From Pyramidobacter sp. C12-8 (GTDB taxonomy: Bacteria > Synergistota > Synergistia > Synergistales > Dethiosulfovibrionaceae), in assembly GCF_002007215.1 (NCBI RefSeq), contig NZ_MUHX01000026.1:1-39078 (forward strand): a stretch of 39,078 nt of DNA, written 5' to 3'. The notes beneath the pieces are model-generated. The model was not told the origin of the DNA, ran no database searches, and saw only the letters and a list, made by a program, of their open reading frames with translations. Both the position numbers and the translations under genes were made by a program. Shown in pieces: positions 23,667 through 35,199 of the stretch (positions within the stretch are counted from its first letter, which is position 1; each line of letters opens with the position of its first letter).

Positions 23667-24901
23667 ATGCTGACGAACACTGCAATCGAGGGCGCAAAGA
23701 AAAAAGACAGGGCTTACATGATTCTTGACGGCGACGGGCTTTACCTCAAAATCTTGCCGACGGGAAGAAAAACATGGGTGCTGCGGTACTGGATCAACGG
23801 TCAGGAGATGAAAAAAACTCTAGGCGTCTACCCGATCATGACGGCTGCGAACGCCCGGAGAACTCGCGACGAGATCAAGACGAAGATCAAAGCGGGCGTG
23901 CCGCTGGAAGAGCCTAAATCCACGACGTTCGGCGAGATTGCCGAGCGCTGGTACAAGACGATGATGGAACCTAAAAAGGCTGAATCTTACCTGCACACGA
24001 TCCGGCTGCGAATGAAATATCTTGCGGCGTTGTGGACAAGACCCATAGATGAAATTTCGCGCAAAGAATGCTTTGACGTGTTGTCGTTGATCTCCGCGAG
24101 CGGGCGCAAATCAACCGCCAAACGCACGGGGCAGATTGTCGGACAAATCTTCGATTATGCTACGGCGGCAGGCGAAGCGACGATTAACGTTGCCGCCGGC
24201 CTCAACCGTTCGCTCCCGTCGGAAAAGGTCAGGCATTTTGACGCCGTGACGAAAATCGCCGACATGCGTAAATTGCTTAATGCGCTGGACTACGTTGACG
24301 ACTTCATCTTCCGTTCCGGCTTGCAGATTCTTGCTTATTGTTTTGTCCGCCGCAGTGAGTTGTTGCGGGCCGAATGGTCGGAGATCGATTTTGACAGAGC
24401 GGAATGGATTATCCCCGCGGCACATATCAAAGGCCGTCGCGATCACCTTGTGCCGCTTTCGAAGCAGGCGCTTGAGATTTTCCGGCGATTGAAAAGATTT
24501 CGCCCAAAGTGGGGAAAATTACGGGGAGCGCCAACCTCATCTTGCCTGCGTCGCGAGGCGCGAATACTGGCAGTCGCGTGGGCAACTCCACGTTACTCAA
24601 AGAGCTTAAGAGCTTGTACAAAAAACTCGATCCAGACGATCTACCGTCAGAGCCTATGACGCTTCACGGATTCCGGACGATGGCATCGACGTTTCTGAAT
24701 GAATCCGGGTGGGCGAAGGACGTCATCGAATGTGAGCTTGCTCACTTGGAGGAAAACGAATCGCGCGAGGCGTACAATCGCGCGATGTACGCTCCGGAAC
24801 GGCGACTCATGATGCAATGGTATGCGGACGCCCTGGACGCCGTGAAAGCGGGGCAGGACATAACGCCCGTTCCTGAAAACATCAAGAATATGCACCGATA
24901 A
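23667..24901 (+). pseudogene. P4-type tyrosine integrase broken by a one-base frameshift
   Basis: Two frames together give a P4/CP4-57-like integrase of about 411 residues. The first frame (from 23667) has the N-terminal arm-binding domain (DGDGLYLKI, TWVLRYWINGQ, TLGVYPIMTAANAR), the core domain, and catalytic Arg in FVRRSELLRAEW. After about 24495 the match continues in the next frame to 24901: LHGFRTMASTFLNE (His, Arg), CELAHLEEN and REAYNRAMY. Adding one A to the run AAAA at 24492-24495 restores a continuous protein (...FRRLKKISPKVGK...). The first frame otherwise ends at 24659. It lies 221 bases after tRNA-Thr, reading away from it, the usual layout of a tRNA-integrated island. Sequencing error in the A-run cannot be excluded. 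Confidence 0.85.
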
Positions 24902-24965: not shown

Positions 24966-25187
24966 ATGGCATTTTCCATCAGACTGACCGAAGAAGAGCG
25001 GAACCTTGCCGACAGCTACGCAAAACTGCATTCTATGTCCATGGGCGAGGCTTTTAAAAAAGCTTTGTTCGAGCGCATCGAGGACGAATACGACATCGCC
25101 ATCGCCAACGAAGCTTACGATGAATACCTCAAAAGCGGCAAAAAGAGCCGTCCGATCGGCGAACTCTGGAAAGACGTCGATCTATGA
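24966..25187 (+). CDS. RelB/DinJ-like antitoxin
   Basis: 73 residues. The N-terminus (AFSIRLTEEERNLADSYAKLH) fits a ribbon-helix-helix: one strand that reads the operator, followed by two helices (SMGEAFKKALFERIEDE). The acidic C-terminal part (EYLKSGKKSRPIGELWKD) is the likely toxin-wrapping segment. AAAGGAGAGG precedes the ATG. It overlaps the toxin gene by four bases (ATGA), so the antitoxin is translated first. It probably represses its own promoter at the palindromes upstream. Family assignment rests on size, pattern and partner. Confidence 0.85.
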   Translation: MAFSIRLTEEERNLADSYAKLHSMSMGEAFKKALFERIEDEYDIAIANEAYDEYLKSGKKSRPIGELWKDVDL

Positions 25188-25453
25188 GTTACGACGTCCA
25201 GACGACCCAGCGATTCGACCGGGAATTTAAAAAGCTCGACAGATACACGCAGCTGATGATCAAATCGTGGATCAACAAAAACCTTGTTGAGTGCGCAGAC
25301 CCGCGAATCCATGGAAAGCCGCTTGTTGCCAACCGTAAGGGGCAGTGGCGTTACAGAATCGGAGATTACCGCCTGATTTGCCTCATCGACGACCAAGAGT
25401 TGATCATTTTGGCCTTGAGCGTTGGACATCGGCGGGAAGCGTACAGGAATTAG
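25184..25453 (+). CDS. RelE/ParE-superfamily toxin
   Basis: 89 residues. Opening YDVQTTQRFDREFKKLD, then two helices, HGKPL, WRYRIGDYRLICLIDDQELIILALSVGHRREAY: the Y-R-hydrophobic pattern and C-terminal HRREAYRN are typical of RelE-type mRNA interferases. Conserved basic residues (Arg/Lys in WRYRIGDYR and Arg in HRRE) are intact and the length is normal, so it looks functional. It would cut mRNA in the ribosome when not neutralised by the antitoxin. A strong terminator ends the pair 8 bases after the stop. It lies next to the degraded integrase, a common place for stabilising modules. Confidence 0.88.
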   Translation: MSYDVQTTQRFDREFKKLDRYTQLMIKSWINKNLVECADPRIHGKPLVANRKGQWRYRIGDYRLICLIDDQELIILALSVGHRREAYRN

Positions 25454-25851: not shown

Positions 25852-25895
25852 AAAAGAGAGGCCGCCCCAAAAGTCGACCGGAGCAGCCTCTCTCT
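25852..25895 (-). terminator. Terminator after dctM (minus strand)
   Basis: Stem AGAGAGGCCGC / GCAGCCTCTCT with one mismatch, reading on the minus strand into TTTT (plus A-run 25852-25855). It begins 10 bases after the dctM stop. Confidence 0.75.
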
Positions 25896-25904
25896 CTGAT
25901 CCCA

Positions 25905-27182
25905 TCACATCAGGGAGGGCAACCAGAGGCTCAGCTGAGGAACCATGCCGGCAATGATCAGAAGGACGATGATAATCGCGGCAAACGGAATGACTCCTTT
26001 GATGACCTCCTGCATTTTTACGTTGGGGAATAATCCGTTGATAACGTACAGGTTCATGCCGACCGGAGGCGAGATCAGCGCCATGGTCATGTTGATGGTG
26101 ACCAGCACGCCGTACCAGATGGTGTTGACGCCGAGCGCGTGGAGAATCGGCGTTACCAGCGGCATGGTCAGCAGCACGACGGAAACCGTTTCAAGCAGCG
26201 CGCCGAGGACGAACATCAGCAGGTTCATGATGATGATGAACGTTGCGGCGGAGAGCTTGTTGTCGACCACGAAAGCGGTAAGAGCCTGAGGAATCCTCAA
26301 ATAGGTCATAACGCGCCCGAACAGAAGGGCGCCGCAGATGATGATGGCGATCATGCAGCTTGAAGGAACCGCCTTCATACAGATCTTGGGGATGTCGGCA
26401 AATTTAACGGTGCGATAGACGAACAGCGTGATGAAAAGGCTGTATACCAGACCGACGGCAGCAGCTTCCGTGGGCGTGAAGATGCCGGTATAAATGCCGC
26501 CGATGATCAGCAGGGGCAGAAAAATGCCGGGCAGGTTCTTGATGGTGATGGACATGCGTTCTTTCCAGGGCGCTTTGGGTTCCGAGGTGTAGCCGCCATG
26601 CTTGCTTTTATACACGACATAAACGATGAACAGCGTAGCGAGAAGCAGCCCGGGAACGACTCCCGCCATGAACAGTTTGCCCGTGGAATCCTCAGTGACG
26701 GTAGCGTAAATGATCATGGGGATGCTCGGGGGGATCAGGATGCCTAACGTTCCGCCGGCGGCCAGCAACCCCAGCGTAAGCGTTTTGTCATAGCCGTGCT
26801 TGATCAGGGCAGGATAGGCGACCATGCCGATCGTGGCGGCCGTCGCCGCTCCGGAACCGGTGATGGCGGCGAAAAAGGCGCAGGCGAGGATCGTGCCGAT
26901 GCCCAGGCCTCCCGGCAGATGGCGGACCCAGGTGTTCATGACTTCGAACAGGTCGTCTCCCACCTTGCCGTCTAACAGTATCTGACTCATCAGGATGAAG
27001 ATCGGGATAGACAGCGTGTTGAAACTCTCCAGCGACGACCACATGGTGGTGCCGATGATCTTGATGGGCAAGTGGAAAACCTGGATCAGGATCAGCGACG
27101 TCATGCCCAGGGAGAAGGCCACCGGCAGCCCCAACGCGAGGATAAAAAGCAGGATGGCGACGACGAGAAGAAAGTTGGTCAT
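25905..27182 (-). CDS. dctM: TRAP transporter large permease subunit
   Basis: 425 residues, about 12 hydrophobic segments, the standard DctM length. Family features include NTLSIPIFILMSQILL, the ITGSGAATAATIGMVAYP region, GGTLGILIPPSIPMIIYA, and FTPTEAAAVGLVYSL. It is the sodium-coupled membrane pore that accepts substrate from the DctP protein. GGGAGGA precedes the ATG. The gene is 14 bases after dctQ, so the two are co-translated. The cargo cannot be read from the permease; the neighbours suggest a carboxylate that is then bound to CoA. Confidence 0.96.
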   Translation of the reverse strand: MTNFLLVVAILLFILALGLPVAFSLGMTSLILIQVFHLPIKIIGTTMWSSLESFNTLSIPIFILMSQILLDGKVGDDLFEVMNTWVRHLPGGLGIGTILACAFFAAITGSGAATAATIGMVAYPALIKHGYDKTLTLGLLAAGGTLGILIPPSIPMIIYATVTEDSTGKLFMAGVVPGLLLATLFIVYVVYKSKHGGYTSEPKAPWKERMSITIKNLPGIFLPLLIIGGIYTGIFTPTEAAAVGLVYSLFITLFVYRTVKFADIPKICMKAVPSSCMIAIIICGALLFGRVMTYLRIPQALTAFVVDNKLSAATFIIIMNLLMFVLGALLETVSVVLLTMPLVTPILHALGVNTIWYGVLVTINMTMALISPPVGMNLYVINGLFPNVKMQEVIKGVIPFAAIIIVLLIIAGMVPQLSLWLPSLM

Positions 27183-27196
27183 ACGAGCATCCTCCC

Positions 27197-27706
27197 TTAC
27201 TCGCTGAGGCCTTCGCCCGCGCGAAGAGCCGCGATACGGTCAAGCAGGTTGATGAAGAACTGCAGAGCAAGAAGTCCAAAACCCAGCAGCAGGGGAAGCT
27301 GGATCCACCACACCGGAATGTGCAGGAGATTGTCGGTCAGTTTGTTCAGCCTGATGCTGGAAGCGATCATGAGCCAGGCTTGCCAGGAGACAACGACGCA
27401 AAAGACGATGCCCATAATGCTGGTGACGACATCAAGATAAAGCTGGATTCTTTTCGGGAACTTATCGAATATCAAATCGATGCGGACATGTTTTCCCAGC
27501 ATCAGCGTATAAGCCGCGCCAACCAGCATGGTCCACATGAACAGGTAAATGGCGGTGTTCATGACCCAGATCGTCGGGGCCTTGAAGATGCCGCGCATCA
27601 CGACTTCGTACGCGAGGATCAGGCTCATCGCGAGAATCCCGAGCCCGCTGAGATAGCCGCAGAAGGTGTTGCCGGCCTTGACAAGAGCGCGAAGTTTGTT
27701 GAGCAT
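27197..27706 (-). CDS. dctQ: TRAP transporter small permease subunit
   Basis: 169 residues with four hydrophobic segments (about 16-36, 50-68, 85-107, 130-155). The second carries the WTMLVGAAYTLMLGKHVRIDLI motif typical of DctQ. It forms a membrane complex with DctM. GAGGAGG lies upstream of the ATG. It is separated from dctP by 90 bases that contain a perfect 11-bp hairpin, often used to keep the binding protein more abundant than the permease. Confidence 0.95.
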   Translation of the reverse strand: MLNKLRALVKAGNTFCGYLSGLGILAMSLILAYEVVMRGIFKAPTIWVMNTAIYLFMWTMLVGAAYTLMLGKHVRIDLIFDKFPKRIQLYLDVVTSIMGIVFCVVVSWQAWLMIASSIRLNKLTDNLLHIPVWWIQLPLLLGFGLLALQFFINLLDRIAALRAGEGLSE

Positions 27707-27734
27707 ATGGGAGAGACCTCCTCTTGTGAGCTGA

Positions 27735-27766
27735 ACGGAGCCCCGGCGACGCCGTCGGGGCTCCGT
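27735..27766 (-). promoter_or_regulatory. Intercistronic stem-loop between dctP and dctQ
   Basis: Perfect 11-bp stem ACGGAGCCCCG/CGGGGCTCCGT with a 10-base loop and no T-run on the minus strand. It more likely protects the upstream dctP mRNA or lowers dctQM expression than fully stops transcription. Confidence 0.7.
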
Positions 27767-27796
27767 ATCGCATGGTCTGTTATCGGAAAGCTTCTT

Positions 27797-28777
27797 TTAG
27801 TCGAAGACTTTGTGAGCCAGATCAACGAGTTTTTGTCCCGTCTCTCCGGCGCGCGCAACGTAGGTGTCCCAAACGCTCTTGGTGGCCGCAACCATTTGGG
27901 CGCGTTCTTCGGCGGTCAGCGCGTTGACTTCAAGTCCCGCATCGCGGACGGTTTTTTCGGCGGCGCCTTCGGATTCCGCCACCGCGCCGCGGAGCCATTT
28001 CTCGGCGACTTTGCCGGCTTCGAGGATAGCTTTCTGGCTGTCGGCGTCAAGGCCGTTCCACCAGTCGAGATTGGCCTGAACGGAGAACTGGGCCGTGCTG
28101 TAATTGGCGATGGTCAGATATTTGCAGACCTCGTAAATCTTGCGGGACACCGCGGCAGGCATGCCGGTGGTCGCGCCTTTCACGGTGCCGTTCTGAATGG
28201 CCATATACATTTCCGCCGAGCTGATCAGAGTGGGGGCCGCGCCGAGAGCCTTCAAGGTAATGGAGTCGCCGGCGCTGTAGGAGCGCATCGTCAGTCCCTC
28301 AAAATCCTTGGGGCTGTGCAGAGGATGCTCGTTGTTCCACATCTGAATGAAACCGTAGTCGACCCAGAAAAGGTTTTTCACGCCCTTCTTGTTGAACTCG
28401 GCGTCAAGAATATCCGCCGCGCCGGCATTCAAAAACTTTTCCGGCGAGGACAAGTCGACGAACAGGAAAGGCAGGTCGAACACGTCGGCAGCGGGCACCA
28501 TGCCGCCCCATTTGTAGGTGCCGACGAGGCCGACTTCGACAAGGCCGTCCTGGACCGCTTCGAGAATCTGGCTGTCATTGTACAGGGAACCGGAGTCCGC
28601 GACATTGACCTTCAGTTGGCCGCCGCTCAGCTCGACGACTTTGTCGGCGAAAACATGAATGGCCTTGGAAATATGGTGAGAAGGAGGAAATTGATTGGAA
28701 ACAGTGAACTCCGCGCCAAAAGCGACGGAGCAGGACAGAACCGCAACCGCAGCAAAAGCCATTACTTTCTTGAACAT
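27797..28777 (-). CDS. dctP: TRAP transporter substrate-binding protein (DctP family)
   Basis: 326 residues with a Sec signal peptide (basic FKK, hydrophobic core, probable cut after AFG at residue 21). The mature part begins with FTVSNQFPPSHHISKAIHVFADKV, and the ligand-contact region has GLTMRSYSAGDS, where the Arg usually salt-bridges a carboxylate. The WNNEHPLHSPKDFEGL and FSVQANLDWWNGL segments fit DctP. It works in the periplasm, supporting a diderm envelope. AGAGGGG lies upstream of the ATG. Ligand is unknown; a carboxylic acid is expected. Confidence 0.95.
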   Translation of the reverse strand: MFKKVMAFAAVAVLSCSVAFGAEFTVSNQFPPSHHISKAIHVFADKVVELSGGQLKVNVADSGSLYNDSQILEAVQDGLVEVGLVGTYKWGGMVPAADVFDLPFLFVDLSSPEKFLNAGAADILDAEFNKKGVKNLFWVDYGFIQMWNNEHPLHSPKDFEGLTMRSYSAGDSITLKALGAAPTLISSAEMYMAIQNGTVKGATTGMPAAVSRKIYEVCKYLTIANYSTAQFSVQANLDWWNGLDADSQKAILEAGKVAEKWLRGAVAESEGAAEKTVRDAGLEVNALTAEERAQMVAATKSVWDTYVARAGETGQKLVDLAHKVFD

Positions 28778-28823
28778 CTACGACACCCCTCTGGAGAAAT
28801 TTTTTGGAACTGGTCTCTGAGAA

Positions 28824-28860
28824 TTTCAGGAGAAATGCGGAAATGGGATTCCGCCTGAAA
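28824..28860 (-). promoter_or_regulatory. Stem-loop between the lyase gene and dctP
   Basis: Nested inverted repeats TTTCAGG/CCTGAAA (28824-28830 with 28854-28860) and GCGGAA/TTCCGC inside. There is no T-run in the minus-strand direction, so this may be an mRNA processing or attenuation element. Confidence 0.5.
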
Positions 28861-28871
28861 CCGTGAAAAAG

Positions 28872-29807
28872 TCACTGATTCTGCACGGGCATCTCCGGTT
28901 TGGGCTTGCCAAAGGAGCTCGCGCACAGACTTCCCATCGTCCTCAAACCGTACGCTTTCAGAGCGCGGGCAACCGTCACAACCCTGAGAGGGTCAAGCCC
29001 GGTGTCGACGCCCATGCTTTGCATCAGGTAGACCAAATCTTCCGTTGCAGCGTTGCCGGCCGCGCCGGGGGCAAAAGGACAGCCGCCGAGGCCGCCGACG
29101 GCCGAATCGAACCTGTTGAATCCCTCGTCAAGGGCGCATTTCACGTTCATGTCGGCAAAACCGTACGTGTTGTGGATGTGCAGATAGGTGGGGATCCCCT
29201 CGAGCGCCGGTTTGACGACCTGAAGCGTTTCGGTGAAGTCTTTGGGCGTACAGGTGCCGATCGTTTCGGCAAGGGTGATGCAGTCGACTCCCTTGGCGCG
29301 CACTTTGCCGATCAACTCGGCCACCCGGCGGGGATCGATGCGTCCCTCGAAGGGACACATGAAGGACGTGGCCATGGAAACGCAGATCTTCGCTTTGCCC
29401 CTGACAAGCGCGATAATGTCGTCCATGCCGGAGAGCGACTGCTCTACGGTGCGGCGGATGTTGGCCATATTATGGCTTTCGCTGACGGAAAACACCACGT
29501 TGACGACGTCAGCCCCGGCGACTAACGCGTTCTCCGCTCCCTTGACGTTGGGGACCAAGGCGGTGAACTCGACGTCGGGGTACTCTTTCTTGACGGCCGG
29601 CAGCACCTGGGCGGCGTCAGACAGTTGAGGAATCGCTTTCGGGCTGACGAAAGACGTGATTTCCATCTCCTTGATGCCAGTCGAAAGCATTTGGCCGATG
29701 AACTCGACCTTCTTTTCCGTGGGAATGAAATCGCAGATCCCCTGAAATCCGTCACGTGGGCAGACCTCGCGAATAACAGCGTTCTTGGGCAGACTGTCAA
29801 AATGCAT
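28872..29807 (-). CDS. HMG-CoA lyase-like enzyme (DRE-TIM metallolyase)
   Basis: 311 residues. It has the metallolyase opening REVCPRDGFQ (Arg18-Asp19), the metal-binding pair His210 and His212 in HIHNTYG (human enzyme: HCHDTYG), and the catalytic GLGGCPFAPGAAGNAATED with Cys243 and Asn252. This loop is the HMG-CoA lyase signature and separates it from isopropylmalate or citramalate synthases. It would cleave a 3-hydroxy-3-methyl-acyl-CoA, for example HMG-CoA to acetoacetate and acetyl-CoA. GGAGGAGG sits before the ATG. It lies 53 bases after the CoA-transferase gene, so the substrate is probably activated by that enzyme. The exact acyl group is open. Confidence 0.85.
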   Translation of the reverse strand: MHFDSLPKNAVIREVCPRDGFQGICDFIPTEKKVEFIGQMLSTGIKEMEITSFVSPKAIPQLSDAAQVLPAVKKEYPDVEFTALVPNVKGAENALVAGADVVNVVFSVSESHNMANIRRTVEQSLSGMDDIIALVRGKAKICVSMATSFMCPFEGRIDPRRVAELIGKVRAKGVDCITLAETIGTCTPKDFTETLQVVKPALEGIPTYLHIHNTYGFADMNVKCALDEGFNRFDSAVGGLGGCPFAPGAAGNAATEDLVYLMQSMGVDTGLDPLRVVTVARALKAYGLRTMGSLCASSFGKPKPEMPVQNQ

Positions 29808-29860
29808 TCGTTAACCTCCTCCTAAAAGTCAATACGGATCGAAAGAGCTGATCGGACGTT

Positions 29861-31057
29861 TTAAATGACGCCTTTTTCGGAAAGCTCCCGAAGCCGCTCG
29901 CCGGACAGGCCGAAAATGCCCCCGTAAACTTCTGCGTTGTCGGCGCCGGGAATAACCGGCGCATGACGCGTGATCTCCACCGGCGTCCCCATAAGTTTGA
30001 CAGGGTTGCCGTTGACCTGCATGGGACCGATGACGGGGTGGGGCAGATCCACAAGCATCTCGCGGGCTTTGACCAGATGTTCGTCGGTCGTGACGTCGTG
30101 AAGGTCGAAGATCGGAGCAGCCGGAACGCCGACCCCCAGGATCTTGTCGACAAGTTCGTCAGCGTTGTAATTCTTGGTCCAGTCATTGATGATCTCGCCG
30201 AGCGCGATCCGGTTTTCGGGCTTATTGCGCTCAAGCAGGGTGGCGAAGCGGCTGTCCTCGAGAAGATCCTTTCTGCCCATCAGATCGAGCAGTTTCTCGA
30301 ACAGCCCCTGGTTGCCGCAGCCGATAATAAATTCCTTGTCCTTGGCTTTGAAGGAGTCGTAAGGATAAGTCGCCGCATATTCATTGCCCATTCTCTCGGG
30401 AATCTCGTGGTTGACGAGATATCTTTGAATCCCCGTCTCCAGGCTGGAGACGACCGAGTCGACGAGCGCCACGTCGACTCGCTGTCCCTTGCCGGTGATA
30501 CTGCGGGCATTCAGAGCGGCCAGAAGGCCGATGGTAAGGTTCATGCCGCCCAACACGTCTCCCATCGCGCTGCCGGAGCGGCAGGGTTTGCCGCCGCGTG
30601 GACCGGTGATGCTCATCAGACCGCCCATCGCTTGGGCAATGATGTCGTACCCTGGGCGTTCGCTGTAAGGACCGTAGCAGCCGAAACCGGAAACGGCGCC
30701 GTAAATGATTCTGGGGTTCACTTCTTTCAAGACGTCGTAACCGAGGCCGAGCTTATCCATGACGCCGGGACGGTAATTCTCGACGACCATGTCAGCCGTC
30801 TTGACCATTTCAAGAAAAAGCTGTTTCCCCTCTGGAGCCTTCATGTTAAGAGAAACGCCCTTTTTGTTGCGGTTCACGTTGGCGTAGTACATGCTGCTTT
30901 TATTCTTGTAAGGACCGAAATTGCGGGTGTCGTCGCCTTTGCCGGGGATCTCGATCTTGATGACTTCGGCCCCCATGTCCGCGAGCATCATCGTGCAATA
31001 TGGCCCCGCCAAAACCCGAGTGAGATCGAGAACGCGAATGTTGCTTAGAGCTCCCAT
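29861..31057 (-). CDS. Family III CoA-transferase (CaiB/BaiF/Frc-like)
   Basis: 398 residues. The opening IRVLDLTRVLAGPYCTMMLADMGAEVIKIE and the NRNKKGVSLNMK and NYRPGVMDKLGLGYD segments are hallmarks of the family. The catalytic aspartate is Asp167 in GSAMGDVLGG, the equivalent of Asp169 in formyl-CoA transferase. It moves CoA from a donor such as succinyl-CoA or acetyl-CoA to a carboxylate through an aspartyl-CoA anhydride. First gene of the minus-strand cluster, facing a 584-base gap. With the TRAP transporter and the lyase it suggests import, activation and cleavage of one carboxylate. The substrate is not predictable from sequence. Confidence 0.9.
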   Translation of the reverse strand: MGALSNIRVLDLTRVLAGPYCTMMLADMGAEVIKIEIPGKGDDTRNFGPYKNKSSMYYANVNRNKKGVSLNMKAPEGKQLFLEMVKTADMVVENYRPGVMDKLGLGYDVLKEVNPRIIYGAVSGFGCYGPYSERPGYDIIAQAMGGLMSITGPRGGKPCRSGSAMGDVLGGMNLTIGLLAALNARSITGKGQRVDVALVDSVVSSLETGIQRYLVNHEIPERMGNEYAATYPYDSFKAKDKEFIIGCGNQGLFEKLLDLMGRKDLLEDSRFATLLERNKPENRIALGEIINDWTKNYNADELVDKILGVGVPAAPIFDLHDVTTDEHLVKAREMLVDLPHPVIGPMQVNGNPVKLMGTPVEITRHAPVIPGADNAEVYGGIFGLSGERLRELSEKGVI

Positions 31058-31136
31058 GTGAATATGCCCCTTTCGAATGAGTCGGAAACGCCGGACTTTA
31101 GTGTAATTGCTCCATTTTATTGCTTTTCGTTTGAAT

Positions 31137-31151
31137 AATTTTATGAGAAAT
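31137..31151. promoter_or_regulatory. CodY-box-like sequence
   Basis: AATTTTATGAGAAAT matches the Gram-positive CodY consensus (AATTTTCWGAAAATT) at 12 of 15 positions. It lies 80 bases before the CoA-transferase start. codY is encoded in this window with a near-identical DNA-reading helix. A match of this quality can occur by chance in AT-rich DNA. Confidence 0.4.
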
Positions 31152-31546
31152 CCCTCAAAAAATTTTCTTGCGCGATGTGAAGTTTAGTACATTCGAGATA
31201 AATAATCAAGTGTCATTGCGTGCACCTACATTGTACAAAATACTTCAGTGAACCTGGAAAACGTGCCCTTGGCGAACTGGAGAGAGGTAAATTTTATAAA
31301 ATCATAGTTATGGTCGAAATGGATTCGAGTTTATTTCAACGGAAACAGTTGCCTTTTGACACGACGAACGCGAGGACGTCAAATGATTTCACTTTTTGAG
31401 CAGGCGGCATGATCGTCGGGAAATTTGCCCGGACTCCCTCGCGATGGCAGTCAGGTCGCAAATATGAACTGGCGAGGAACGATATTTTTTGATCAATTAT
31501 AAATATTTAGTTTTTCATTTTATGCATTGGTTTCAGAAAAAAAGTG

Positions 31547-31552
31547 TATAAT
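31547..31552 (+). promoter_or_regulatory. Probable -10 element of nifJ
   Basis: Perfect TATAAT about 90 bases before the nifJ start. TTGGTT at 31527 is too close (14 bases) to be an ideal -35, so an activator may be needed. Confidence 0.5.
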
Positions 31553-31641
31553 TTGAGTGTATGGGATCCTTGGAAATAAAACCAAAAACAGATGCGGCAA
31601 AGGGCAGATCAGGGAACCGTACCAAAAAGGGGGAGACTGAA

Positions 31642-34600
31642 ATGGCAAAACAGATCATGACGATTGACGGCAACGAAGCGGCAGCGCACGTGTCTTACGC
31701 CTTCACCGAGGTGGCGACGATCTATCCGATCACGCCTTCTTCACCGATGGCGGAGCATGTGGACGAATGGTCGGCGCGCGGTCGGCAGAACTTGTTCGGT
31801 CAGCGTGTCCATTTGATGGAGATGCAGGCCGAGTTCGGCGCGGCGGCCGCCATGCACGGAGCATTGGAGTCGGGCGCGCTTGCCACGTCCTATACGGCGT
31901 CGCAGGGATTGATGCTGATGATTCCGCCAATGTACCGCATTGCCGGCCAGTTGATGCCGGGCGTGCTGCATGTCAGCGCGAGGACGGTCGGAACTCACGC
32001 ATTTTCGATTTTCGGCGATCATTCCGACGTCATGGCCGTACGGCAGACAGGTTTTGCCATGCTGTCTTCGGGCAGCGTGCAGGAAGTGGCCGACCTGGCG
32101 GCTGTGCCGCATCTCGCGGCGATTGCCGGCAGCGTGCCTTTCGTGCATTTTTTCGACGGCTTCCGCACTTCTCATGAAATCCAGAAAATCGAGATGCTGT
32201 CATACGACGATTTTGGCGAGATGCTGGATAAAGAAGCGCTGCTGGCGTTCCGCAAGAGATCTCTCAACAGCGACCGGCCGGTACAGCGCAGCACCGTGCA
32301 GAATCCCGACGTGCTTTTCCAGGCGCGGGAAGCCTGCAATCGTTACTATCTGCGCATGCCTTACATTGTGCAGTCTTATATGGACCGCATCCACGCTCTG
32401 ACCGGCCGCAGTTACCACCTTTTCGACTATTATGGCGACCCCAACGCGGAGCGGGTCGTTATCGCGATGGGCTCAGTGTCGGGATGTCTTCAGGAAGTTG
32501 TCGACGAGCTGCGCTCACGTGGCCAGAAAGTGGGTTTTCTGCAAGTCCATCTTTATCGACCGTTTTCTGCGGAACATTTCCTTACCGCTCTGCCGGAAAG
32601 CGTGCGCTGCGTGACCGTGCTCGATCGTACCAAAGAGGCCGGCGCGCCGGGCGAGCCTCTGTACGAAGACGTCTGCTCGACGTTCTCCAATGTTTCCACG
32701 GCGCCGATGGTCATCGCCGGGCGCTATGGCCTGTCTTCCAAAGATGTCACTCCGGCGCAGATGATCGCCGCGTTTGACAATATGGATTCGATCCAGCCCA
32801 AGAACCATTTCACGATCGGCATCAAGGACGACGTGACCTATCATTCGCTGGAGCTCGGGCCCAATATCGTCACCGAGAGCGAAGGCACCGTGGCCTGCAA
32901 GTTTTGGGGACTTGGTTCCGATGGTACCGTGGGAGCCAACAAGAACTCCATCAAGATTATTGGAGACAACACCGACCAATACGTTCAGGCTTATTTTGAA
33001 TACGACACGAAGAAATCCGGCAGCGTGACGAGATCGCATCTTCGCTTCGGACGGCTGCCGATCCGTTCCACCTATCTGGTCACGCAGGCCGATTTCGTTG
33101 CCTGTCACGTGCAAGCCTACATCGGCAAGTACAACGTCTCAGGCGAGCTGAAAGACGGCGGCACCTTCTTGCTGAACTGCGCCTGGAAACCGGAAGATCT
33201 GGAGCGGCATCTTCCCGCTTCCGTCAAACGGGATCTGGCTCGTAAACATATCAATTTTTACATCATCGACGCTACCCGCATCGCTATGGAAATCGGCATG
33301 GGGAACCGCACAAACTCCGTGCTGCAGTCGGCGTTTTTCAAGCTGTCGGGCATTCTGCCTTTCGAAGACGTCGTGAAGTACATGAAGGAAGCGATCAAGA
33401 ATACTTACGGCGCGAAGGGCGACAAGGTCCTTCGCATGAACTACGAGGCTGTCGACCGCGGCGGCGCCAGCGTGATCCGCATCGAAGTTCCCGCTGAATG
33501 GGCCAACGCCGAGGATAAGGCGGCGGATGAACGCGTTGATCCTTTGCTTCCCGACTATATTCGCAAAGTGCTGATCCCCGTCAACAGCCTGAAAGGCGAC
33601 GACATTCCCGTCAGCGTTTTTGTTGACGCGGCCGACGGCACGGTGCCGCTGGGGACCTCCAAGTATGAAAAGCGCGGCACGGCAGTGATGGTTCCGGAGT
33701 GGAATCCGGAAAGGTGCATTCAATGCAACATGTGTTCTTTTGTTTGTCCGCATGCGGCCATCAGACCCTTCCTGTTGAACGAATCAGAGGCGTTGAACGC
33801 GCCGGACGGCTTTGAAACGGTTGATGCCCGCGGTCTGAAAAACGCTCAAGGCCTGAAGTTCCGCATCCAGCTCAGCGCTCTTGACTGCGTCGGCTGCGGC
33901 AGCTGCGTCGAAGTCTGCCCGGTCAAGGAGAAAGCGCTCGTGATGAAGTTGCTCGAGACCCAGCTGCCTCAGCAGAAAAACTGGGATTATGCGCTGACCC
34001 TCTCGCCGAAAGTGAATCCGATGGATAAATTCACCGTCAAAGGCAGCCAGTTCGAACAGCCTCTGCTTGAATTTTCGGGGGCGTGTGCGGGCTGCGGCGA
34101 GACCCCCTACATGAAAGCCATGACGCAGCTTTTCGGCGACCGCATGTACATCGCCAATGCCACAGGCTGCACTCAGGCCTGGGGCGCGGCCTGTCCCTGT
34201 GTGCCTTATACGAAGAACAATCGCGGCCATGGACCGGCGTTCTCCAACTCGTTGTTCGAAAATAACGCCGAATTCAGCCTTGGCATGTGCCTGGCCGTCC
34301 AGCAGCAGCGCGAGCGCCTGCTGATGACGGCCGAGAAGCTGCTCAACGGTAAGACCCGCGATCCCGAACTGATCCGGGCGCTGCAGGAATGGAAAGACCA
34401 TTACCATGAGGGCGAAGGCAGCAGGGCGTACAGCGATGCGGTGGAAACGGCCGCCAAAGTCGCGTGCGCCCGCGGCGAGGACAGTCTGGAACTGCGCGAC
34501 CTGCTGAACAACACCGAACATCTTGTCAAAAAGTCCATGTGGATGTACGGAGGCGACGGCTGGGCCTATGATATCGGCTTTGGCGGCCTCGACCATGTGC

Positions 34601-35199
34601 TCGCGAATGGCCCTGACGTAAACGTTCTGGTCGTGGATACGGAAGTCTACTCCAATACGGGAGGCCAGTCTTCAAAAGCTACCCCGGTGGCGGCTGTCGC
34701 ACAGTTTGCCAGCTCCGGCAAGAAGACCGGCAAAAAGGATCTGGGGCTGATGGCTATGAGTTATGGCAATGTCTACGTCGCTCAAGTCGCCATGGGCGCC
34801 GATCCCGCTCATTTCATCAAAGTCCTGAAAGAGGCGGAGTCATATGACGGACCGTCGCTGATCATCGCCTATGCGCCCTGCATTAACCACGGCATCGTCA
34901 AGGGAATGGGCTATGCGATGCCCGAGAGCAAGTTGGCCGTGCAATCCGGCTATTGGCACCTGTATCGGTACGATCCGCGCCGCGCCGCGAAGGGGGAGAA
35001 TCCTTTCGTTTTGGATTCCAAGAAGCCCACGATTCCGCTGCGCGATTTCCTCATGGGCGAAGTTCGCTATGCGGCGCTTGGCCGAACGTTCCCCGAGGAA
35101 GCCGCTCGCCTTCTGGCAATGGCGGAAGTCCAGGCGGACGCGAAGTACCGGCGTTATGCGGCGATGGCCGAGTCAGGAAAGATTTCCGTTACCGCCTGA
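31642..35199 (+). CDS. nifJ: Pyruvate:ferredoxin oxidoreductase, single-chain form
   Basis: 1185 residues, normal for the fused enzyme. The N-terminal domain has VATIYPITPSSPMAEHVD. Two 4Fe-4S sites follow: Cys692, 695, 698, 702 and Cys749, 752, 755, 759. A further cluster uses CAGCGE and later cysteines, and the thiamine diphosphate domain has GDGWAYDIGFGGLDH and NTGGQSSKATP. It oxidises pyruvate to acetyl-CoA with reduction of ferredoxin, the main energy step in such anaerobes. ATG 31642 has AGGGGGAG six bases upstream; an in-frame ATG at 31561 is unlikely. A terminator lies about 130 bases downstream. Confidence 0.97.
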   Translation: MAKQIMTIDGNEAAAHVSYAFTEVATIYPITPSSPMAEHVDEWSARGRQNLFGQRVHLMEMQAEFGAAAAMHGALESGALATSYTASQGLMLMIPPMYRIAGQLMPGVLHVSARTVGTHAFSIFGDHSDVMAVRQTGFAMLSSGSVQEVADLAAVPHLAAIAGSVPFVHFFDGFRTSHEIQKIEMLSYDDFGEMLDKEALLAFRKRSLNSDRPVQRSTVQNPDVLFQAREACNRYYLRMPYIVQSYMDRIHALTGRSYHLFDYYGDPNAERVVIAMGSVSGCLQEVVDELRSRGQKVGFLQVHLYRPFSAEHFLTALPESVRCVTVLDRTKEAGAPGEPLYEDVCSTFSNVSTAPMVIAGRYGLSSKDVTPAQMIAAFDNMDSIQPKNHFTIGIKDDVTYHSLELGPNIVTESEGTVACKFWGLGSDGTVGANKNSIKIIGDNTDQYVQAYFEYDTKKSGSVTRSHLRFGRLPIRSTYLVTQADFVACHVQAYIGKYNVSGELKDGGTFLLNCAWKPEDLERHLPASVKRDLARKHINFYIIDATRIAMEIGMGNRTNSVLQSAFFKLSGILPFEDVVKYMKEAIKNTYGAKGDKVLRMNYEAVDRGGASVIRIEVPAEWANAEDKAADERVDPLLPDYIRKVLIPVNSLKGDDIPVSVFVDAADGTVPLGTSKYEKRGTAVMVPEWNPERCIQCNMCSFVCPHAAIRPFLLNESEALNAPDGFETVDARGLKNAQGLKFRIQLSALDCVGCGSCVEVCPVKEKALVMKLLETQLPQQKNWDYALTLSPKVNPMDKFTVKGSQFEQPLLEFSGACAGCGETPYMKAMTQLFGDRMYIANATGCTQAWGAACPCVPYTKNNRGHGPAFSNSLFENNAEFSLGMCLAVQQQRERLLMTAEKLLNGKTRDPELIRALQEWKDHYHEGEGSRAYSDAVETAAKVACARGEDSLELRDLLNNTEHLVKKSMWMYGGDGWAYDIGFGGLDHVLANGPDVNVLVVDTEVYSNTGGQSSKATPVAAVAQFASSGKKTGKKDLGLMAMSYGNVYVAQVAMGADPAHFIKVLKEAESYDGPSLIIAYAPCINHGIVKGMGYAMPESKLAVQSGYWHLYRYDPRRAAKGENPFVLDSKKPTIPLRDFLMGEVRYAALGRTFPEEAARLLAMAEVQADAKYRRYAAMAESGKISVTA

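Follow-up and report, generated by a model that had tools for sequence, protein, structure and literature searches.

A TRAP transporter, CoA-transferase and HMGL-like lyase gene cluster of Pyramidobacter sp. C12-8 as a candidate scavenging unit for C5 methylmalates

A candidate uptake and cleavage unit

We analyzed a stretch of 39,078 nucleotides from Pyramidobacter sp. C12-8 (contig NZ_MUHX01000026.1, positions 1 to 39,078; hereafter the window), in which five complete open reading frames (ORFs) on the minus strand, at positions 25905-31057, encode a family III (CaiB/BaiF) coenzyme A (CoA)-transferase, an HMGL-like lyase and the DctP, DctQ and DctM subunits of a tripartite ATP-independent periplasmic (TRAP) transporter. 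We propose, with a probability of roughly 0.55, that these genes form a scavenging unit for C5 methylmalate, with (R)-citramalate (2-methylmalate) as the main substrate and acetyl-CoA and pyruvate as the products. DctP would capture the acid dianion and DctQM would drive its uptake, the mode being that known for TRAP transporters and the ligand a predicted one. The CoA-transferase would then shift CoA from an internal acyl-CoA to the acid via an aspartyl intermediate, as is known for its family (the aspartate, Asp167, is present), and the lyase, with Mg2+ held by D19, H210, H212 and N252 and with C243 and R18 taking part, would split the thioester into acetyl-CoA and pyruvate. A divergent gene for pyruvate:ferredoxin oxidoreductase (PFOR) might provide a sink for the pyruvate. 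The features are as follows.

29861..31057, minus strand: family III (CaiB/BaiF) CoA-transferase, 398 aa; PF02515, 411 bits
28872..29807, minus strand: HMGL-like TIM-barrel lyase, 311 aa; PF00682, 140 bits
27797..28777, minus strand: DctP, TRAP solute-binding protein, 326 aa; PF03480
27197..27706, minus strand: DctQ, TRAP small membrane subunit, 169 aa; PF04290
25905..27182, minus strand: DctM, TRAP large membrane subunit, 425 aa; PF06808; TIGR00786, 387 bits against a cut-off of 268
25852..25896, minus strand: hairpin 3' of DctM, 19 pairs with a T-rich end of the 3' arm; -34 kcal/mol, z -4.5
31058..31560, no strand: gap between the CoA-transferase and PFOR genes; blastn alignment with genome G003 breaks at 31105/31460
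31561..35199, plus strand: PFOR, outside the unit; TIGR02176, 1810 bits against a cut-off of 911

In profile searches the Pfam matches of all five genes lay far above their cut-offs, those of the full set of TRAP subunits included. The gaps, read from the CoA-transferase to DctM, are 53, 94, 90 and 14 bp, in agreement with the close same-strand spacing that an earlier note on this DNA had described. The hairpin begins fewer than 10 bases from the DctM stop codon and is likely the transcription terminator of the five-gene unit, although a simple terminator scan did not return it. At the other end the upstream PFOR gene is divergent, so that the five genes form their own directon; a PFOR gene lies near the cassette in genomes G001, G002 and G003 as well. 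A promoter scan gave 5 matches against 3.1 expected and was not used as evidence.

Conservation of the transporter-enzyme linkage

When the lyase was searched against 61 genomes, 16 of the same order, the window genome included, had a match at E <= 1e-80. The CoA-transferase adjoins the lyase in 16 of these 16 genomes (a contig end cuts the CaiB gene in G004 and G057), and a same-family TRAP transporter stands beside the enzyme pair in 13, the pair being without a nearby TRAP in G019, G021 and G060. Three arrangements were found: CaiB-HMGL-DctPQM in the window's genus and G057, DctPQM-CaiB-HMGL in G005, G007, G008, G009, G010 and G011, and a divergent one in G050. One DctM family occurs throughout the 13 TRAP-linked genomes, with 65-67% identity in the other genera, and the complete five-gene set is also present in a Synergistales metagenome-assembled genome (MAG; L070). 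Because gene order was rearranged while the linkage was kept, a joint function of transporter and enzyme pair is suggested. With 19 matches to the DctM family across the 2.67 Mb of the window genome, a randomly chosen gene would by rough estimate have a DctM no more than 5 kb away in about 8% of cases; the TRAP-enzyme linkage exceeds chance.

A wider sample was drawn by a pattern scan of a species-genome collection (84,980 species) and consisted of the best 80 of 592 confirmed homologues, 20 of them near a contig end. For the counts of gene context we ran tblastn with single queries and accepted genes up to 5 kb away, which misses families that are more distant. Within that distance we found a CoA-transferase at 56 of the 80 loci, DctM at 8, a TctC-like receptor at 7 and a MatC-like carrier at 5, and 25 of the 56 CaiB-linked loci carry one of four transporter types queried. 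With CaiB so frequent and the transporters so varied, the stable core is transferase plus lyase, the transporter, TRAP among several, being exchangeable.

These two scales bear differently on the explanation that the TRAP transporter and the enzyme pair are unrelated genes that happen to share a strand. The wider sample is in its favor, since DctM lies within 5 kb at only 8 of the 56 CaiB-linked loci, as are five CaiB-linked loci whose DctP-like gene lacks the receptor signature described below. Against it stand the linkage kept in 13 of 16 genomes through three arrangements with a single DctM family, and the recurrence of the DctP signature with the pair in Marinomonas and Campylobacteraceae, and we regard a chance neighborhood as very improbable. 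The earlier note had asked whether the five-gene set recurs and whether the enzymes mostly occur apart from the transporter: among close relatives they are linked, while in the wider sample most CaiB-linked pairs stand without a DctM nearby. Its reading of import, CoA transfer and carbon-carbon cleavage as one unit is supported by the gene content, by this recurrence and by a DctP sub-family that co-occurs with the pair.

The lyase and its likely substrate

Sequence alignment places the metal ligands D19, H210, H212 and N252 in the window lyase, and R18, E49 and C243 occupy the positions of Arg41, Glu72 and Cys266 of HMG-CoA lyase, where HMG is 3-hydroxy-3-methylglutarate; the position of its Tyr167 is Ser144 in the window. 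According to a review, the residues most critical to HMG-CoA lyase are Arg41, Glu72, Tyr167 and Cys266, and its metal ligands are Asp42, Asn275, His233 and His235 (PMC6941031). The R-x-Y motif that contains this tyrosine is present in the four HMG-CoA lyases aligned (human, B. subtilis, P. aeruginosa and Brucella) and in 11 of 24 CaiB-less homologues, as against 0 of 56 homologues with CaiB within 5 kb (Fisher p 2e-7, with ancestry ignored). For this residue table one locus with in-frame stops (L050) was dropped and places below 100 bits were left out. A second motif, S-x-S-E-x-H-N, was rejected as a marker of the CaiB-linked branch, as Bacillus-type homologues with the tyrosine motif carry it too. 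Judged by these residues, the window lyase is probably not an HMG-CoA lyase.

An AlphaFold model of the window lyase, built from 29 sequences, had a mean predicted local distance difference test score (pLDDT) of 93.6. Its top structural match was 6nds (Z 43.0, 38% identity), followed by 1ydo (Z 42.4), and other HMG-CoA lyase structures gave Z 39-42; by sequence the closest solved relative was again 6nds (E 4e-67; next E 1e-55). The title of 6nds, from A. baumannii, names an HMG-CoA lyase together with coenzyme A and 3-methylmalate. A protein from an Acinetobacter record is identical to the listed part of 6nds at 277 of 279 positions, likewise lacks the tyrosine by eye, and is encoded directly after a CoA-transferase gene. 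The nearest structure thus itself belongs to the CaiB-linked type, and its title names a C5 methylmalate. The Acinetobacter record, of 328 kb (L210, CAKLQH020000001.1), is labelled Acinetobacter phage; it holds chromosomal metabolic genes in the stretch seen and is probably a mislabelled bacterial sequence.

The earlier note had placed HMG first among the candidate substrates, which would make the unit a route for meglutol: HMG would be imported, converted to HMG-CoA and split into acetyl-CoA and acetoacetate, the latter consumed by a thiolase route. This possibility draws on the HMG-CoA lyase subfamily model NF004283, which the window lyase passes (283.8 bits, cut-off 246), on the retained metal ligands and Arg, Glu and Cys residues, on the presence of a succinate-hydroxymethylglutarate CoA-transferase (9br6, E 5.5e-77) among the best structure matches of the window CaiB, and on a thiolase in the genome, by which acetoacetate from HMG would be usable. 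Our own argument that an acetoacetate sink was absent failed on that thiolase. In addition, one report describes free HMG acid in Acinetobacter baylyi and suggests the involvement of a putative HMG-CoA lyase, ACIAD2820 (PMC4213383). Nevertheless, Tyr167 is absent from the window and from 56 of 56 CaiB-linked homologues, the closest solved relative is titled with methylmalate and not HMG, and the linked hydratase, PrpF-family and alkylmalate-lyase-like genes of relatives (below) do not fit HMG, so that we consider this route unlikely. The note's other suggestions, a methylated hydroxydicarboxylate or citramalate, fit gene context and nearest structure better.

The same structure raises 3-methylmalate (e.g., D-erythro-3-methylmalate) as the main substrate, which would yield propionyl-CoA and glyoxylate. 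It is the acid named with CoA in the 6nds title, the near-identical gene is CaiB-linked, and hydratases of the family can make either methylmalate isomer. Weighing the other way, the substrates of HMGL enzymes are tertiary methyl carbinols, a group present in 2-methylmalate but not in 3-methylmalate, and the ligand in the 6nds crystal may be adventitious; we hold this alternative, too, to be improbable.

The CoA-transferase and its linked genes

The window CaiB falls below every NCBIfam equivalog cut-off listed, the best being that for succinyl-CoA:mesaconate (323 against 700). Asp167, which we take to be the catalytic residue of family III CoA-transferases, is conserved in 77 of 77 aligned sequences. 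In a tree limited to stop-free sequences of 331-469 aa that lie within 5 kb of a lyase, the window copy falls in a clade of 33 (support 0.984) that includes hydratase-linked copies from Testudinibacter, Anaerospora, Lachnoclostridium, Peptococcaceae and two Synergistota; other hydratase-linked copies, that of Cupriavidus included, lie outside it. We propose on this basis that the window CaiB may be a transferase that moves CoA from a donor to methylmalate.

Evidence for the methylmalate comes from gene context in the wider sample, where 13 of the 80 loci have an aconitase-type hydratase within 5 kb. CaiB is present at 12 of these; the hydratase matches at three of the 12 (L105, L143 and L149) are weak, at 27-29%. 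In Testudinibacter the order is CaiB, HMGL, LeuC-like, LeuD/DmdB-like, PrpF family, MatC-like and PrpR-like; the hydratase small subunit passes the LeuD/DmdB model (174, cut-off 109) and the PrpF-family protein reaches no equivalog cut-off. A PrpF-family isomerase occurs at 3 of the 12 CaiB-hydratase loci (Testudinibacter, Lachnoclostridium and Anaerospora), the latter two sharing the same four enzyme types with Testudinibacter, and a Cupriavidus plasmid carries CaiB, HMGL, LeuC, LeuD and a tricarboxylate receptor. Aconitase-type hydratases of the LeuCD kind convert citraconate or dimethylmaleate into (2R)-alkylmalates, and the linkage of hydratase and PrpF isomerase follows the logic of a conversion of citraconate to (R)-citramalate.

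Several further loci are recorded here. Among the studied loci, the CaiB closest to the window's from outside its genus (67% identical) is that of Clostridioides difficile CD160 (L107), beside a lyase, a MatC-like carrier, an enoyl-CoA hydratase and an acyl-CoA dehydrogenase. Escherichia albertii (L084, 4819-11239) has a CaiB-HMGL-hydrolase-MFS stretch with a PrpR-like regulator, and its CaiB-HMGL part had no megablast match in 20,395 E. coli records. The window's genus has a second CaiB-HMGL-MatC cluster (L050, 9458-10378; L049, 6502-7389), whose lyase is open in G003 and has two in-frame stops in G001. In a second Synergistota cluster (L053, L055, L059 and L061-L064), which gave no CaiB match, a different TRAP transporter accompanies a remote HMGL-like protein (33-36%). 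The two such loci scanned, L053 and L059, have shikimate-dehydrogenase-like genes nearby, together with a sugar-isomerase-like barrel and an FAD enzyme in L053 and a GFO/IDH oxidoreductase in L059.

The DctP receptor

Against the narrower model TIGR00787 the window DctP scored 170.8, just below the cut-off of 175.05. Its Arg165, at the place of the conserved ligand-binding arginine of TRAP receptors, was invariant in 10 of 10 sequences. A Thr204-Gly205 pair together with Arg212 was found in 17 of 17 DctP proteins encoded beside the enzyme pair in Synergistota, Marinomonas and Campylobacteraceae, as against Thr-Gly in 0 of 18 other DctP-like proteins of the studied loci, 15 of which have Glu203-Asn204 instead. 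Position 204 is Asn in the five PDB receptors aligned and in 16 of these 18 proteins, and Thr in the window. The nearest solved receptors are remote in sequence, and a sequence-based prediction of the ligand was not possible; the distribution of the signature suggests that the Thr-Gly receptors of the three groups bind a common ligand unlike plain C4-dicarboxylates.

Genes flanking the unit

In G003 and G001 the interval between PFOR and CaiB holds an AraC-type regulator and a 290-aa lyase of the phosphoenolpyruvate (PEP)-mutase/isocitrate-lyase family, neither of which was found there in the window by blastn, ORF inspection or tblastn. By tblastn the PEP-mutase-family lyase belongs to the cluster in L070 and in 9 of the 16 close genomes; in two of the other seven the contig is short and breaks off. 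Among solved structures this lyase is closest to 1zlp (E 1e-68), the petal death protein, which is a 2-alkylmalate lyase; next come 4iqd, which is named a phosphorylmutase, and third the 2,3-dimethylmalate lyase 3fa3. The two copies tested reach no NCBIfam equivalog cut-off. Matches to the alkylmalate-lyase-like protein occur in 476 plasmid records. Where present, this enzyme might cleave the acid in its free form, or a homologue of that acid; the window has lost the gene or never had it. The window genome's best homologue shows only 41% identity and is located elsewhere in the genome, which suggests that the window's version of the unit works without it.

This sixth gene brings in 2,3-dimethylmalate or another 2-alkylmalate as substrate, cleaved to propionyl-CoA and pyruvate in a CoA-conserving alternative to the dimethylmalate lyase of nicotinate fermentation. 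The linkage of a lyase near 1zlp and 3fa3 in 9 of 16 genomes speaks for it, as do the Testudinibacter small subunit above the LeuD/DmdB cut-off and the linked PrpF-family isomerase. A partial look at the neighbors scanned found no other nicotinate gene, however, and the LeuCD-like sets of Cupriavidus, Limnohabitans and Alkalibacillus suit citraconate equally, which leaves this substrate rather unlikely.

Directly after PFOR in G001 lies a remnant-like match to an aconitase-type hydratase (L205, 5753-6190; 36% to residues 277-420), hinting that a hydratase may once have been near the cassette. On the other side of the unit, the window has a tyrosine integrase split over two overlapping frames (23667-24901) beside tRNA-Lys/Glu/Thr. 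We rejected the possibility that the integrase by tRNA-Thr carries the cassette, since G003 and G001 have the cassette but no integrase at the same place; this indicates a decaying insertion that does not include the cassette. A toxin-antitoxin-like pair (24966-25453), a DUF6290 protein and a ParE-type toxin, is aligned in G003 and mostly missing in G001.

Weighing the citramalate proposal

A number of observations weigh against (R)-citramalate. No hydratase is linked to the cassette in the window, and none of the CaiB copies in the clade of 33 has a TRAP transporter as well as a hydratase within 5 kb. The 6nds title names 3-methylmalate and not 2-methylmalate, and the structural lead of 6nds over 1ydo amounts to a tie. 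To the NF004283 score and the thiolase described above should be added that 13 of 80 homologues, 6 of them near a contig end, have neither the tyrosine motif nor CaiB, and loss of the tyrosine is consequently not a marker of CaiB linkage alone. As for the receptor, the apparent replacement of the binding-site Asn by Thr leaves room for a ligand other than a plain dicarboxylate. Further, five CaiB-HMGL loci (L078, L088, L089, L101 and L151, the last with the gene on the other strand) have a DctP-like gene without Thr-Gly, so that five of the 18 receptors lacking it stand near such a pair and the signature is not tied to every one.

A possible wider route

More tentatively, and with odds clearly below even, the transferase-lyase clade of the window may lie at the heart of a widespread, as yet undescribed route by which anaerobes use C5 branched dicarboxylates. 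Itaconate would be converted to citraconate by the PrpF-family isomerase and citraconate to (R)-citramalate by the aconitase-type hydratase, after which CoA would be transferred and an HMGL-type lyase would release acetyl-CoA and pyruvate. Such a route would hydrate before CoA activation, the reverse of Ict-Ich-Ccl, and would use the opposite citramalate enantiomer; TRAP-linked versions like that of the window would import the middle intermediate directly. Members of the clade include Testudinibacter, a Lachnoclostridium MAG, Clostridioides difficile CD160 and Escherichia albertii, not all of which have isomerase and hydratase in the locus. All four taxa live in association with hosts, where itaconate serves as a defence metabolite of the host.

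If the CaiB-linked branch without Tyr167 does act on citramalate-type acids, many HMG-CoA lyase names would be wrong. Lyase homologues are named HMG-CoA lyase in 8 of the 10 plasmid records listed (421 had a match) and are unannotated in the other two. One residue and a neighboring gene would then help to separate the two kinds of lyase, a carbon source would be defined for Synergistota, and it would become possible to test what becomes of citramalate, citraconate and itaconate in anaerobes.

Comparison with known systems

The HMG-CoA lyases 2cw6, 1ydo, 2ftp and 1ydn share the fold (Z 39-42) and metal site of the window lyase and differ from it, human and bacterial enzymes alike, in Arg165-x-Tyr167 and CPY; none of the 11 homologues with the motif stands beside CaiB. 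Closer is A. baumannii 6nds, the nearest solved sequence relative, also without Tyr167 and with a 99%-identical gene that is CaiB-linked, although the Acinetobacter locus lies beside a YfaV-annotated transporter and a gltC-annotated regulator, with no TRAP gene annotated in the stretch seen.

Pseudomonas aeruginosa resembles the window in linking a TRAP transporter to a CoA-transferase and a citramalyl-CoA lyase for a C5 dicarboxylate, its Ict and Ccl presumably belonging to protein families other than those of the window's enzymes. It differs further in having a CoA-ester hydratase and in an IctP of the C4-dicarboxylate type, as against Thr-Gly at 204-205 of the window DctP (IctP lies outside the alignments made). 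IctPQM is reported to be a TRAP system linked to ict-ich-ccl and essential for growth on itaconate (PMC12599236), and the enzyme steps include a CoA-transferase and a citramalyl-CoA lyase (PMC13307414).

For the enzyme pair the nearest parallel is Chloroflexus: in Chloroflexales-like genomes a family III CoA-transferase gene lies directly beside that of an HMGL-family lyase without Tyr167, as in the window (53 bp apart). We searched three Chloroflexales-like genomes, recognized with a 3-hydroxypropionate-cycle marker, for both genes, and in all three CaiB adjoins an HMGL-like lyase lacking the tyrosine, a finding in line with the known R-citramalyl-CoA route and thus in favor of our proposal. 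The Chloroflexus pair serves CO2 fixation, and we take its R-citramalyl-CoA lyase to be of the HMGL family and its transferase to be of class III. Here, too, there are points against our proposal: lyase and transferase are only 36% and 37% identical to the window's, and the putative Chloroflexus lyase has Asp for Glu14 and an APRAVGN loop. The Chloroflexus-type copy is not among the 48 sequences listed for the window's nested clades. D-citramalate CoA-transferase and R-citramalyl-CoA lyase of Chloroflexus are named in PMC8307300 and PMC9804861. The earlier note knew of no characterized operon with exactly this set and thought that it could be a new route; we likewise found no matching paper in the open-access literature for the exact five-gene combination, whose parts are of known kinds, but both halves have precedents, in Chloroflexus and in Pseudomonas.

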